From the NCBI RefSeq assembly GCF_014230085.1, contig NZ_JACHVB010000063.1, positions 62,001 through 126,000 on the forward strand: DNA of 64,000 nt, written 5' to 3'. Positions 15,923 through 26,873 of this stretch are shown one piece after another. This DNA comes from Ruficoccus amylovorans. Its GTDB lineage: Bacteria; Verrucomicrobiota; Verrucomicrobiia; Opitutales; Cerasicoccaceae. Under the pieces are notes generated by a model that saw nothing but the letters and a program-made list of their open reading frames with translations, was not told the origin of the DNA and ran no database searches. The translations under genes were made by a program, and so were the position numbers. How positions within the stretch are numbered: position 1 is the stretch's first letter; every line of letters starts with the position of its first letter.

Positions 15923-16069
15923 AAGAACCGGGTAATAAATACGCACACCCGCGCCTTGTCAAAGCGGTAATCATCTTCGTTCCGGTTTTACCCGCTCCCC
16001 TCCAACGCCACCCCACCGACCTTTTTCGCCGCCCCAGCGCAACGGCGCAATCTCCCAAAAACAAACTGG

Positions 16070-16142
16070 CAGGGGCAGAGGGACTTGAACCCCCGACCAA
16101 TGGTTTAGAAAACCACTGCTCTATCCACTGAGCTATGCCCCC
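16070..16142 (-). tRNA. tRNA-Arg (anticodon UCU)
   Basis: A 73-nt cloverleaf on the minus strand. The acceptor stem GGGGGCA pairs with TGCCCCT (first pair G-T). The D arm is GCTC/GAGC. The anticodon arm has loop TTTCTAA, giving anticodon TCT. The T arm has loop TTCAAGT, and the discriminator base is G. The CCA end is not encoded. A tyrosine recombinase gene starts 91 bp from the 5' end of the tRNA. Confidence 0.93.
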
Positions 16143-18171: not shown

Positions 18172-18206
18172 TTGACAAAACCATTACTGCAATGCAGTAT
18201 TGCAGC
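18172..18206 (+). promoter_or_regulatory. Promoter and palindromic operator of the AbrB/PIN toxin-antitoxin pair
   Basis: TTGACA at 18172-18177 is followed after 17 bp by CAGTAT at 18195-18200. Between and overlapping the -10 lies the 15-bp palindrome TACTGCAATGCAGTA (18185-18199, symmetric around the central base). Transcription predicted from this spacing would begin at about 18206-18208, at the ATG at 18207. The message may therefore be leaderless, with the palindrome as an autoregulatory operator. Confidence 0.55.
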
Positions 18207-18443
18207 ATGTCAGCAGTTCTCTCAGTCAGCAAACGCGGCACCGTGACCCTGCCGCCGGAGTATCGGCGCAAGCTGGGTCTCGACAAGCTCCCGAATCCCC
18301 TCGTGATCGTCGAGGAGAAGGACGGCAAGCTTACGCTCGAACCCGCCGCCGCTGTCCCCGTCCGCGACATCCCCGCCAAGACAATCCGCGAATGGATCGC
18401 CGATGACGAGGCCGCCATGGCCGCTTTCAAGAAAAGCAAGTGA
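18207..18443 (+). CDS. AbrB/MazE-type antitoxin
   Basis: A 78-residue protein from the ATG at 18207 (an ATG at 18192 would start inside the predicted promoter). The N-terminal half (LSVSKRGTVTLPPEYRRKLG) is a swapped-hairpin AbrB DNA-binding domain. The C-terminal half (AKTIREWIADDEAAMAAFKKS) is a helix of the kind that wraps the toxin. It is translationally coupled to the PIN gene by a 4-bp overlap (18440-18443). The expected role is to neutralise the toxin and repress the operon. Confidence 0.85.
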   Translation: MSAVLSVSKRGTVTLPPEYRRKLGLDKLPNPLVIVEEKDGKLTLEPAAAVPVRDIPAKTIREWIADDEAAMAAFKKSK

Positions 18444-18862
18444 AGCTGTTTCTGGATTCGAGCGTGCTCCTCTCGGCTTCTGCCTCGGCCAAGGGCGCAA
18501 GCCGCTACATTGTTGAGAACGCGGAATCATTGAGCTGGTCGCTCATCAGCTCGGCCTACTGTCTGGCCGAAACCCAAAAGAACCTCCCCAAGCTCGGCCC
18601 CGCTGCTGTTCAGCACTTCAAGCGTCTTGTCCGCGACAGCATCGCGTGGACCGGGGACGCGCTGTCCCCGGATAAGATTCTCATCTTCCCCAAGGCCAAA
18701 GACCGCCCCGTCGTCCTCTCCGCCCTCGCCGCAAAGGTGGACGTCCTGCTGACCCTCGACCGTCAGGACTTCATGGGCCTGCTCGGGAGCCAGGTTTACG
18801 GCGTCGCTATCCGCACCCCCGGCGATTGGTTGCTTGAATGCCGCGAGCATGGAGTGATATAG
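18440..18862 (+). CDS. PIN-domain toxin (putative ribonuclease, VapC-like)
   Basis: A 140-residue PIN-domain protein starting with GTG inside the antitoxin stop codon. The acidic catalytic set is visible: Asp6 in LFLDSSVLL, Glu in AYCLAETQKNL near residue 44, and a C-terminal Asp pair around AAKVDVLLTLDRQDF (near 93-101). PIN toxins cut tRNA or rRNA when freed from the antitoxin. The operon lies in the accessory stretch next to the integrase. Confidence 0.85.
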   Translation: MKLFLDSSVLLSASASAKGASRYIVENAESLSWSLISSAYCLAETQKNLPKLGPAAVQHFKRLVRDSIAWTGDALSPDKILIFPKAKDRPVVLSALAAKVDVLLTLDRQDFMGLLGSQVYGVAIRTPGDWLLECREHGVI

Positions 18863-23222: not shown

Positions 23223-24659
23223 CTAAAAATCCACCTGGAGCTGGAGGCCGATGACGAGCGCGTCGTCGAACTGATTGGCCGCGCCGGGATTGATAACGCC
23301 CTGGATGTTCGGCTGGAGGTAGAAGTAGTTCGTCACCTGATAGCGGTAGCTCAGTTCGAGTTCGACTTCGTAGTCCTGCACAGGCTGGCCGGCGGCGCGC
23401 TGGGCATTCCCCCAACTGCTGCTGAAGTTCAGCCAGGCCGCGCCGAGAGAGAGGATGTCCTGGTCGCGTCCCGGTAGCAGCCCCCGGTAGTAGAGACCGG
23501 CGCTGGCGAAGAGGTCGGCCTGGTTCACGTCGTCGCTGAGGTTGAACTGGCCCGTGGTCCAGAAGTAGAGCCCCTGGATCTCTTCCATAAAACCTTCTGA
23601 CTGGCCCCAGACCTGACGGGCCTGCATGCGCTCGGAGTTGGGCACTTGCTCGGGCACGCCCTCGCGGTAGAGGTTCTGCTCGATGAAGTAGTAAAGCCCC
23701 CCGATGTTGTCGGTCGTGCCGCCGCTGTTCGTAGTGAAGGGTCCGGTGAACATCCACGCCCCCAGCGCGTATTTACCGGGCAGGCCGGAGGAGTATTTTG
23801 ACCAGTTGAGCTTGTAGCCCAGCTCGCCCATGATGTTCGCGCCCTGGTCGAAGTTAAAGGTGAAGTCCGTCCCGTGGTTGTCCACATTGGCCTGGTTCGA
23901 GTCCGCCCCATAGGCACCGACCATGCCGTAAAAGCCGTCATGCTGCCCGGTGGGAACGCCGCCGCGGATGAGCGCGCCCCAGGTCGTCACCGGGTAGGCC
24001 GTGAACGGTCCCATGAAAAAGAAACCGACCGGCTGCCCGTCGAAGGCGTTGTTCATATAGTAGGCGAAGGCGTCCGAATGCGAGAAGTCGTCAAACTGCG
24101 CGATGCGCCCGGCCTTGATCGAGAAGTGCCCGTCCAGCAGGACTTGTTCGAGGTAGAGGTTGACGAGGCGATAGCTCTCGTTGCCGTAAAGCTGCTGGAC
24201 GTTGATCACGTTGTGGATGTGGCTCAGCGTCAGGCTGGTGCCACTGCGCACCGACAGGCTGCTGAAAAAGCTCAGCCCCTCCAGTCCGGCCAGCTTTTCG
24301 AGGTCCACCCCGAAGTTGAGCCCCGTGCTGTTGAGCTGGGTAAAGCCCCGGCTGTCGCCACCGACAGGGTTACCCGCGAGGTTCATGGCGAAGCTCAGGT
24401 CAATCGCCAGCCCGTAATCGGCCAGGTCTTCGCGCCAGCCCCCGGTGTCGCCGAGCAGGTACTGACGCTCCTGAAGTTCATCGATCATGTCCTCCTCGGG
24501 TTGGCGGTTTTTCTCCGCTTCCGAGGAGAAGTGGGTCAGGTTCTCGTTTATTTTTTCGGTGGAGGAGTTGTAGTTGTCCACCGCGTGAAGAACGGGCGAG
24601 ACGGTCAGTCCTAGCAGGCATGCACACAGCCCGCGAGCAAGACAGGTAGGGGAAGGCAT
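23223..24659 (-). CDS. OprB-family carbohydrate-selective porin
   Basis: A 478-residue outer-membrane protein with a signal peptide (LCACLLGLTVSPVLHA) and a short coiled-coil-like stretch (residues 30-65, QPEEDMIDELQERQ). A beta-barrel follows with many alternating aromatic strands (GFYGMVGAYG, GLYYFIEQNLYREG, LYFWTTGQFNLSDD) and a C-terminal Phe (LQLQVDF). The pattern fits the OprB carbohydrate porin family, which passes sugars across the outer membrane. The final Phe is the usual signal for BAM insertion. No sugar operon is adjacent. Confidence 0.82.
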   Translation of the reverse strand: MPSPTCLARGLCACLLGLTVSPVLHAVDNYNSSTEKINENLTHFSSEAEKNRQPEEDMIDELQERQYLLGDTGGWREDLADYGLAIDLSFAMNLAGNPVGGDSRGFTQLNSTGLNFGVDLEKLAGLEGLSFFSSLSVRSGTSLTLSHIHNVINVQQLYGNESYRLVNLYLEQVLLDGHFSIKAGRIAQFDDFSHSDAFAYYMNNAFDGQPVGFFFMGPFTAYPVTTWGALIRGGVPTGQHDGFYGMVGAYGADSNQANVDNHGTDFTFNFDQGANIMGELGYKLNWSKYSSGLPGKYALGAWMFTGPFTTNSGGTTDNIGGLYYFIEQNLYREGVPEQVPNSERMQARQVWGQSEGFMEEIQGLYFWTTGQFNLSDDVNQADLFASAGLYYRGLLPGRDQDILSLGAAWLNFSSSWGNAQRAAGQPVQDYEVELELSYRYQVTNYFYLQPNIQGVINPGAANQFDDALVIGLQLQVDF

Positions 24660-24826: not shown

Positions 24827-26182
24827 CTACAGGCTGTTCGAGTGCGAGCGTACGATGAGCGGAAGCATCTGTCCGCGCCGGAAAAGCGTGACCTGCCCGC
24901 TGCTGGCCGAGACGACCAGCGCGATGCAATCCGTGGCCACAGAAATGGCGTTGGCCGCGGCGTGACGGGTCCCAAGGCCACTGGGCATTTCCTTGGGAAA
25001 GTCGGGGGCGTGAACCATGCTCCCGGCCGCTTCCAGCACGCCGTCGCCGTTGATGAGAAAGGCCCCGTCGATAAACGAAAACTCCTTCACCGTCTCGTCC
25101 ATGAACGGATTGAGGATGTTGCGCTCCTCGCGCTCGTAGCCCTGGAACGGGTTCAGCACAAGCTGCTTGGTGTAGGGCTTGATCTTCTCTGCCTCGCCGA
25201 TGACGAAAAGCGTGCCGATGGGCTTGCCCTCGCGGCCCTCGACCGAAAGCTCCGTCGCGATGCCCAGCACGCGCTCCAGCACCTCGGGCTTGACCGAACT
25301 GGGGAGCATGTCGCTCTGCCGGGTAAAGACCGACTGGAATTCCCGCTCCACATCGACCACCACGAGCGTGTCGAACTGGTTGCTCTGCGGGATGCCGCCG
25401 ACACAGCAGAGACGCTCGTTGCTTTTGATCAGGCCGCGCGTCAGGCCGATAAGCATGGCGCTGCGCAACTGCGAGAGGCGGTTGAAACCGAAGGCACGCA
25501 CCGGGATGATGGCGTTAAAGGCGCGCTTGGCCTGCGTCATCTCGGAGGCCGACTGCGTGACGAGCAGGGTCTTGAAGTCGCCAAAATCGTCCGCCGCGTC
25601 CACGCCCCCGGCAAAGGTATCTCCGAAAACCATGACCGCTGAGCACTTCGCCCCGGTGGCGATCTTGACGGCCTCGCGCAGGATGAGGCGGTTGAACTTG
25701 TTGTCCTTGGTCCGCTTCTGATCGCGGGGACGGCCAAAGGCGTCGGCCACGTTCTTGCGCAGCGTGGCCACGTCAGGCGAGGCCGTCAGGCGCTCGACCA
25801 TGGAGGGCTCCTGAAAGGTCCGGGCCAGCGAGGCGAGGACGTTCAGGTAAGACTTTTCGCGCTCGGAGGCCAGGAGGAGAAAGATCAGGCGCAGTTCCTT
25901 GTACTCGCCGTGCCCGTCGAACTCCAACCCGTCCGGGCAGCGCCCGATAGCGAAGAGGTATGGGCGCTTCATCTCGATGCGCACGTGCGGCAGGGCGATG
26001 CCGCTGCCGAGGTAGGTCGTCATCGTCTTCTCACGCTCCAGCAGTTCTTCGAGCAGCTCCTTGCGGTCAAACTTCTCTCCGCGCAGGTCACAGACCTCCA
26101 GCAGTTCCTTGAGCGCGCCTTCGAGGTCGCGGCTGACAATGTCGATGATCCGGTTTTTCGCTATGTAACGATCCAGGCGCAT
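24827..26182 (-). CDS. PTS IIA domain fused to a diadenylate cyclase (DacZ-like)
   Basis: A 451-residue protein with three parts. Residues 1-150 are a fructose/mannitol-type PTS EIIA domain with the phosphorylatable His66 in SGIALPHVRI. Residues 160-285 form a pyruvate-kinase-C-like alpha/beta domain (LILREAVKIATGAKCSAVMVFGD), as found at the front of archaeal DacZ cyclases. Residues 290-445 are a DisA_N/DAC domain with the DGA motif (372-374) and GTRHAA (404-409). DAC domains make c-di-AMP from two ATP. The RHR of DisA/CdaA is RHA here; I believe archaeal-type DACs also vary at this site. The likely role is c-di-AMP synthesis controlled by the phosphorylation state of IIA. Soluble; no membrane segments. 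Confidence 0.85.
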   Translation of the reverse strand: MRLDRYIAKNRIIDIVSRDLEGALKELLEVCDLRGEKFDRKELLEELLEREKTMTTYLGSGIALPHVRIEMKRPYLFAIGRCPDGLEFDGHGEYKELRLIFLLLASEREKSYLNVLASLARTFQEPSMVERLTASPDVATLRKNVADAFGRPRDQKRTKDNKFNRLILREAVKIATGAKCSAVMVFGDTFAGGVDAADDFGDFKTLLVTQSASEMTQAKRAFNAIIPVRAFGFNRLSQLRSAMLIGLTRGLIKSNERLCCVGGIPQSNQFDTLVVVDVEREFQSVFTRQSDMLPSSVKPEVLERVLGIATELSVEGREGKPIGTLFVIGEAEKIKPYTKQLVLNPFQGYEREERNILNPFMDETVKEFSFIDGAFLINGDGVLEAAGSMVHAPDFPKEMPSGLGTRHAAANAISVATDCIALVVSASSGQVTLFRRGQMLPLIVRSHSNSL

Positions 26183-26356: not shown

Positions 26357-26731
26357 CTATCTCTCCCATTTCAGGCCGCCTTTTTTCATCTCATAGAGGA
26401 ACCCGACCGCGAGGATAAACAGGAAGAAAAGCACCGGGAGCAGAATCGGAATCTGCGCCACGATGAACTCGCGATAGACGAGGACCCACGGGATGAGGAA
26501 GACGACCTCCACATCGAAAAGGATGAACAGCATCGCCACCACGTAGAACTTCACCCCGAAACGCGGGTGGAACTTTCCGGTGGACACCAGGCCGCACTCG
26601 TAGGCGGCATCCTTGATGTAGTTCCCGCGGGAGCGCTGGCCGAAAATATGGCTGGCCACGATGATTGCGGACGCGATAACCACGCCCAGAATGATCTGGA
26701 TCAGGACGGGAACGTAAGCTTCGACGCTCAT
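26357..26731 (-). CDS. nuoA: NADH-quinone oxidoreductase subunit A
   Basis: A 124-residue membrane protein from the ATG at 26731 (MSVEAYVPVLIQIILGV). Three membrane segments and the loop YECGLVSTGKFHPRFGVKFYVVAMLFILFDVE give the NuoA signature. It is a proton-pumping membrane-arm subunit of complex I. No other nuo gene is next to it: downstream on the same strand is the IIA-DAC fusion, upstream is a cupin. It is therefore an orphan copy or a displaced subunit. Confidence 0.92.
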   Translation of the reverse strand: MSVEAYVPVLIQIILGVVIASAIIVASHIFGQRSRGNYIKDAAYECGLVSTGKFHPRFGVKFYVVAMLFILFDVEVVFLIPWVLVYREFIVAQIPILLPVLFFLFILAVGFLYEMKKGGLKWER

Positions 26732-26873
26732 GATTTTCAATCCATAGCAAGCGTCCGGCCTTGGCAAGTCACTTTGTTGTCAAAAAGTAAGCGTTCATGC
26801 GGGGCGGGACTGTCACGTCGGGCAGCACAACCGCCCATCGGGCAGACAAATAACCGACCGCCCTCCTCCCCCG

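Follow-up and report, generated by a model that had tools for sequence, protein, structure and literature searches.

A DacD-type diadenylate cyclase with a built-in EIIA domain in Opitutales and its possible phosphotransfer input

An EIIA-linked cyclase of a named class

The signals that control the c-di-AMP synthases are poorly known. Among the named classes of these enzymes, DacD is said to have been defined by Corrigan and Gruendling, in 2013, by its EIIA domain, and we take the EIIA fusion to be the defining feature of the class; the PK_C-related domains of the DacZ superfamily are reportedly treated by Galperin in the 2023 survey "All DACs in a row". Representatives of DacD from Lacunisphaera limnophila, Puniceicoccaceae, Coraliomargarita and Opitutae are named in a legend of PMC6741144, and the available part of the same paper gives DisA, CdaA, CdaS, CdaM and DacY/CdaZ as the classes characterised by then. 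The literature searched on DacD, on EIIA-linked diadenylate cyclases, on HPr in combination with c-di-AMP and on c-di-AMP in Opitutae yielded no experimental work on this class. A second point of comparison is PTS-Ntr, in which, according to the available part of a 2026 review (PMC13104625), unphosphorylated PtsN binds TrkA, YcgO and KdpD, and K+ homeostasis is a principal function; the main text of the review makes no mention of c-di-AMP.

The gene described here lies in a window of 64,000 nucleotides (the whole stretch of DNA analysed) from Ruficoccus amylovorans and encodes a protein that combines, from the N-terminus to the C-terminus, an EIIA domain, a DacZ_P domain and a DAC domain (Table 1). 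All three exceed the Pfam gathering cut-offs, the DAC match (PF02457) reaching 71.1 bits against a curated cut-off of 27 and the DacZ_P match 67.2 bits against 27.4, and the generic PK_C model matches weakly (0.23 in Pfam). An AlphaFold2 model of the fusion protein, built from a 40-sequence input (pLDDT 77, pTM 0.55), aligns with EIIA-Ntr (1a6j; Z 17.9, 145 residues, 2.4 A), through residues 158-284 with the C-terminal domain of pyruvate kinase (5wrp; Z 13.7, 123 residues, 3.2 A), and with CdaA (8c4n; Z 15.1, 131 residues, 2.7 A). The trio of IIA, pyruvate-kinase-C-like and DAC domains that the original prediction had read from the sequence is thus borne out by both kinds of match, and the position proposed for the phosphorylatable residue of the IIA domain, His66, is correct as well: it sits within the motif ALPHVR, where phosphorylation is predicted from the sequence. 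The start residue M1 is common to the 40 aligned sequences, themselves cut at the start of the match.

Table 1. Coordinates of the cyclase gene, its domains and motifs, and the upstream neighbour, numbered from the first letter of the window
Feature	Position	Strand	Evidence and remarks
nuoA (complex I subunit A)	26357..26767	-	PF00507, 6.9e-29; upstream, same strand, 174 nt gap
EIIA-DacZ_P-DAC fusion gene (DacD-type diadenylate cyclase)	24827..26182	-	451 aa; ORF list and Pfam
PTS_EIIA_2 domain, residues 15-140	25763..26140	-	Pfam 3.9e-20; EIIA-Ntr fold, Z 17.9
His66 codon, predicted phosphorylation site	25985..25987	-	H in 84/110 aligned homologues, a count that takes in paralogues and EIIA-less rows
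DacZ_P / pyruvate-kinase-C-like domain, residues 162-283	25334..25699	-	Pfam 1.4e-18; fold Z 13.7
DAC domain, residues 313-438	24869..25246	-	Pfam 7.7e-20; CdaA fold, Z 15.1
DGA motif, residues 372-374	25061..25069	-	D and G in 110/110 homologues
RHA motif, residues 406-408 (CdaA: RHR)	24959..24967	-	R and H in 110/110; third position varies

The protein agrees with DacD in the definition taken here, a PTS_EIIA_2 domain N-terminal to DAC, and in host range, being found in Opitutae; its homologues come from organisms also named for that class (Lacunisphaera, Coraliomargarita, Puniceicoccaceae), and, on this comparison by organism and definition, there is no known difference between the two. The sensor arrangement, which the original prediction did not know from characterised DisA, CdaA or CdaS enzymes, is accordingly not without precedent; the fusion is real and well conserved and belongs to a class that has a name (PMC6741144, legend) but seems not to have been studied, so that the architecture itself is no discovery. 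The archaeal DacZ/DacY (CdaZ) enzymes likewise have a PK_C-like domain followed by a DacZ-type DAC domain with an RHx motif, but lack the N-terminal EIIA domain of the fusion. With its PK_C-like domain N-terminal to DAC, the protein belongs to the DacZ/PK_C superfamily, and among the NCBIfam models the DAC half is closest to DacZ (NF041371, 1.1e-31); however, it is not a DacZ orthologue because the score is 110 bits against an equivalog cut-off of 430. The EIIA domain falls in the fru/mtl/Ntr superfamily (PF00359), with a match above the cut-off, the histidine of the LPH motif, and EI and HPr encoded in the genome, and is about equidistant from FruA and PtsN in NCBIfam. The fusion shares with PTS-Ntr the EIIA-Ntr fold and the set of EI, HPr and EIIA unaccompanied by any permease of the tested families, but here EIIA is built into the cyclase and scores 49.4 bits in the PtsN equivalog model (TIGR01419), below the cut-off of 138.7. 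With CdaA/DacA, DisA, CdaS and CdaM, the protein has in common the DAC fold and the DGA and RH motifs; those enzymes differ in the N-terminal sensor part, which in the fusion consists of EIIA and DacZ_P.

Phosphotransfer partners and the fate of His66

Full-length homologues with 43-94% identity occur throughout the order, so the fused reading frame is not a product of chance. Among named relatives, Verrucomicrobiota bacterium JB024 comes closest (94%), followed by two Cerasicoccus species (74-75%), and the rest of the best 80 of 372 records bear the labels Opitutae, Opitutia, Opitutales, Opitutaceae, Puniceicoccaceae, Coraliomargarita, Pelagicoccus or, less exactly, Verrucomicrobia, apart from a single one labelled Pseudomonadales; the homologue set includes a Coraliomargarita protein (L183). 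A survey of 103 genomes of the order found DacZ_P in 88 (84 above the cut-off), EIIA_2 in 86 (85 above the cut-off), and the complete EIIA-DacZ_P-DAC fusion in 82. Two genomes (G293 and G355) were counted as carriers of the fusion by alignment, the DacZ_P model having missed both. Beyond the order, full-length homologues with 30-35% identity were found in four genomes of two families of the same phylum (f18 and f24). Phages gave two weak matches, to EIIA only, and none of the eight plasmid records with DAC-type matches spans 80% of the query. Some DacZ-DAC proteins are shorter, at about 300-320 aa, and have no EIIA (L153, L145, L149 and L139); they are second copies in three genomes (G172, G335 and G364) and the sole copy found in another (G323).

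The genome of R. amylovorans encodes one DAC domain and one EIIA_2 domain, both within the fusion gene. The search for HPr and EI that had been proposed as a check found both, the genes for EI (614 aa) and HPr lying about 2 kb apart on a contig other than that of the fusion. This HPr carries the motifs GIHARPA and GKSIMGL, which we take to be those named for His15 and Ser46, respectively. A second HPr-like protein of 86 aa is encoded on a contig different from that of EI (L072:7577-7837, minus strand). A genome-wide profile search detected neither EIIA-man nor a PTS_EIIC of PF02378. Across the order, EI is present in 80 and HPr in 87 of the 103 genomes, and EIIA-man in one; no association was detected between the cyclase and EI (p 0.48) or HPr (p 1.0). 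At 17 PTS-region loci, a simple pattern, as distinct from an HPrK search proper, picked up no HPrK motif. The fusion is the sole EIIA_2 in 53 of the 82 genomes that have it; 40 of these 53 possess both EI and HPr, and within this group of 40, His66 is retained in 37.

Whether His66 is lost where EI or HPr is absent was a question fixed before the residues were inspected. In the 88 genomes of the order that were scored, His66 is kept in 62 of the 70 with EI, and the 18 without EI comprise seven with His66, seven with Tyr or Cys in its place, and four (family f80) devoid of the EIIA domain, although the absence of EI or HPr was called partly from draft genomes and single cases (for EI, G299, G315 and G364) may reflect incompleteness. 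These counts leave out G297, whose gene is truncated by the end of its contig, as well as four proteins that have no EIIA, namely, that of G323 and the second copies of G172, G335 and G364; two partial matches (G114 and G244) were further excluded from the cyclase tree. On this tree, a quick build with several long branches, the rate of His66 loss is about 9 times higher without EI (one-degree-of-freedom test, p 0.014, 88 rows); the same test gives p 0.007 once four uncertain absences of EI are scored as presences, 0.012 in the 77 genomes of at least 90% completeness, and 0.053 when f80 is omitted. The four-degree-of-freedom Pagel test of correlated evolution yields p 0.096 for EI and 0.095 for HPr, and an independent-pairs test of EI against His66 had too few informative pairs, for which reasons we put little weight on the one-degree-of-freedom tests. 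Nor is His66 singled out because, without f80, five of 20 control EIIA columns (L116, Y112, L27, L47 and Arg68) have p values below 0.05 and lower than that of His66. General relaxation in small genomes devoid of EI is a confounder of His66 loss. In the 14 EI-less rows that retain EIIA, both EIIA and DacZ_P diverge more than DAC (p 0.001 each), as if, without EI, the sensor half relaxes as a unit; many of these genomes are reduced. Nine HPr genes were examined in EI-less genomes: the three from family f82 all lack the Arg that stands two residues past the presumed active His, although the Ser motif is kept, and the other six retain that Arg.

Two families run counter to the expectation and were not foreseen: f64 (five genomes, with Tyr) and f4 (three genomes, with Ser or Cys) have lost His66 but kept EI and HPr, so that His66 is not indispensable. 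In two of the five f64 genomes and one of the three f4 genomes (G311, G333 and G349), the fusion is still the sole EIIA_2, and EI and HPr must have another role there because His66 is gone and no other EIIA_2 exists. Given that these families also keep the EIIA domain itself, and that EIIA-Ntr acts unphosphorylated by binding TrkA, YcgO and KdpD (PMC13104625, available part), EIIA could be a docking or ligand-sensing module that steers the cyclase with no need for phosphorylation of His66. We regard this as unlikely, albeit a serious contender, considering the retention of His66 in the great majority of the genomes with EI and the behaviour of the adjacent Arg68, which is conserved along with EI and relaxed in the EI-less rows. 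Replacement of His66 by Tyr is seen in three separate lineages of the tree (f64, f82 and G355), of which f64 keeps EI and HPr.

A lesser contender, and an improbable one, is that EIIA chiefly hands phosphate on to a transport system or some other target and is joined to the cyclase without regulatory effect. Some relatives do own sugar EIIs, with an EIIC (PF02378) above the cut-off in eight of the 103 genomes of the order and in 12 at E values up to 0.01. However, all eight genomes with EIIC above the cut-off carry additional EIIA_2 genes, and none of the 53 genomes in which the fusion is the sole EIIA_2, nor that of R. amylovorans, has such an EIIC.

The coupling of phosphotransfer to c-di-AMP production, suggested by the original prediction, is not proven, with f64 and f4 as the exceptions, but is how the genomic evidence is best read because the fusion contains the only EIIA_2 and the only DAC of its genome, EI and HPr are present, and His66 or the entire EIIA domain decays in many EI-less genomes. 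The idea is plausible and better founded than before, and in this genome the fusion looks like the chief outlet of a relay for which no sugar transporter of the tested families came to light.

Cyclase integrity and the presumed c-di-AMP output

The original prediction held that cyclase activity needed proof on account of RHA in place of RHR, the motif found in solved CdaA-type enzymes (five alignments shown). This doubt is weakened by comparison across the family. Asp372, Gly373, Arg406 and His407 are identical in all 110 aligned homologues, whereas Ala occupies position 374 in 98 and position 408 in 84 of them, the latter position being variable in the rest; a haloarchaeal protein annotated as dacZ reads RHH, and DacZ of Haloferax volcanii is reported to be active with manganese (PMC6741144, available part). 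On these grounds, RHA is the normal state of the family, with no sign of decay, and the enzyme is predicted to be active. That the cyclase is degenerate and the protein merely a PTS component, as the contrast with the RHR enzymes might suggest, is the least credible of the explanations, being at odds with the invariant residues, the family-wide variation of the third position, the RHH motif and manganese-dependent report for DacZ, the co-occurrence with PgpH described below, and the retention of DAC where EIIA is gone: the DAC motifs are never lost in the scored genomes of the order, including those without His66 or the EIIA domain.

A PgpH-type protein with 7TMR-HDED, 7TM and HD domains is encoded in this genome, and the 7TMR-HDED domain of PgpH is found in 91 of the 103 genomes of the order. 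Both the cyclase and PgpH are present in 85 genomes, the cyclase only in five, PgpH only in six, and neither in seven (p 5e-5, in a test that ignores kinship). As for the c-di-AMP receptors that were to be looked for, riboswitches searched with strict filters are absent from this genome and present in three of the 103 genomes of the order (L175, L174 and L176), where they precede genes for a TrkH transporter, an amino-acid permease and a Band_7 protein, a placement that fits K+ or osmotic control.

Returning to phosphotransfer coupling, the account that we favour, on balance and with some reserve, is that the protein is a soluble diadenylate cyclase whose sensor half, EIIA-Ntr-like and DacZ_P, reads a PEP relay and tunes the cyclase. 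Phosphate derived from PEP would pass from EI to HPr and on to His66, the charge of which would mirror the PEP/pyruvate balance, there being no permease of the tested families to drain it; the EIIA and DacZ_P half would then adjust DAC, acting through the DacZ_P domain, which may bind a metabolite too. PgpH would degrade the c-di-AMP produced, and c-di-AMP would control K+ transport, as the riboswitches in a few relatives hint. Phosphorylation is more likely to be a modulator, and then more likely a brake, than an on-switch because lineages without His66, or without the whole of EIIA, keep an intact cyclase.

A wider scenario, which we put forward as a possibility and would not insist on, is that, in most Opitutales, the PTS lost sugar transport or never had it, and that its EIIA, conserved and often the sole one, is welded to the c-di-AMP synthase, the entire PEP relay thereby serving as a metabolic input to c-di-AMP and, by way of it, to K+ or osmotic control, such that a single protein does the job that PtsN performs by binding K+ transporters in Proteobacteria, with the conserved pairing of nuoA and dacD as a link to respiration. 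With its EIIA domain built in, the cyclase points to a specific input that is open to biochemical study, namely, PEP by way of EI and HPr. The natural variants, with His kept, replaced by Tyr, Ser or Cys, or EIIA lost altogether, are ready-made comparisons. If true, the coupling would provide a function for a PTS without detected permeases in a large bacterial order.

Gene neighbourhood

The gene for complex I subunit A is a recurrent neighbour of the cyclase. It lies directly upstream, on the same strand and at a distance of 1-196 nt (median 68), in 65 of the 78 named relatives with upstream DNA; in the others, nuoA is missing from the flank (12) or located downstream (one). The adjacency extends to distant members of the family, such as those in G149 and G301. 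No terminator-like site was detected between positions 24600 and 26900 of the window. In R. amylovorans, nuoA stands without any other nuo gene adjoining it.

Directly downstream of the cyclase gene, there is a gene for an OprB-type carbohydrate porin (23223-24659, minus strand). We rejected it as a conserved partner; it occurs near the cyclase gene in four of 80 relatives, namely, in Cerasicoccus and the two nearest ones. Farther away, at 18192-18862 on the plus strand, an AbrB-like frame of 83 aa overlaps a PIN-like frame of 140 aa, a pair that, by eye, has the look of a toxin-antitoxin module. The sole RNA detected in the window, by the Rfam gathering score and ARAGORN, is a tRNA-Arg (tct) at 16067-16142 on the minus strand.
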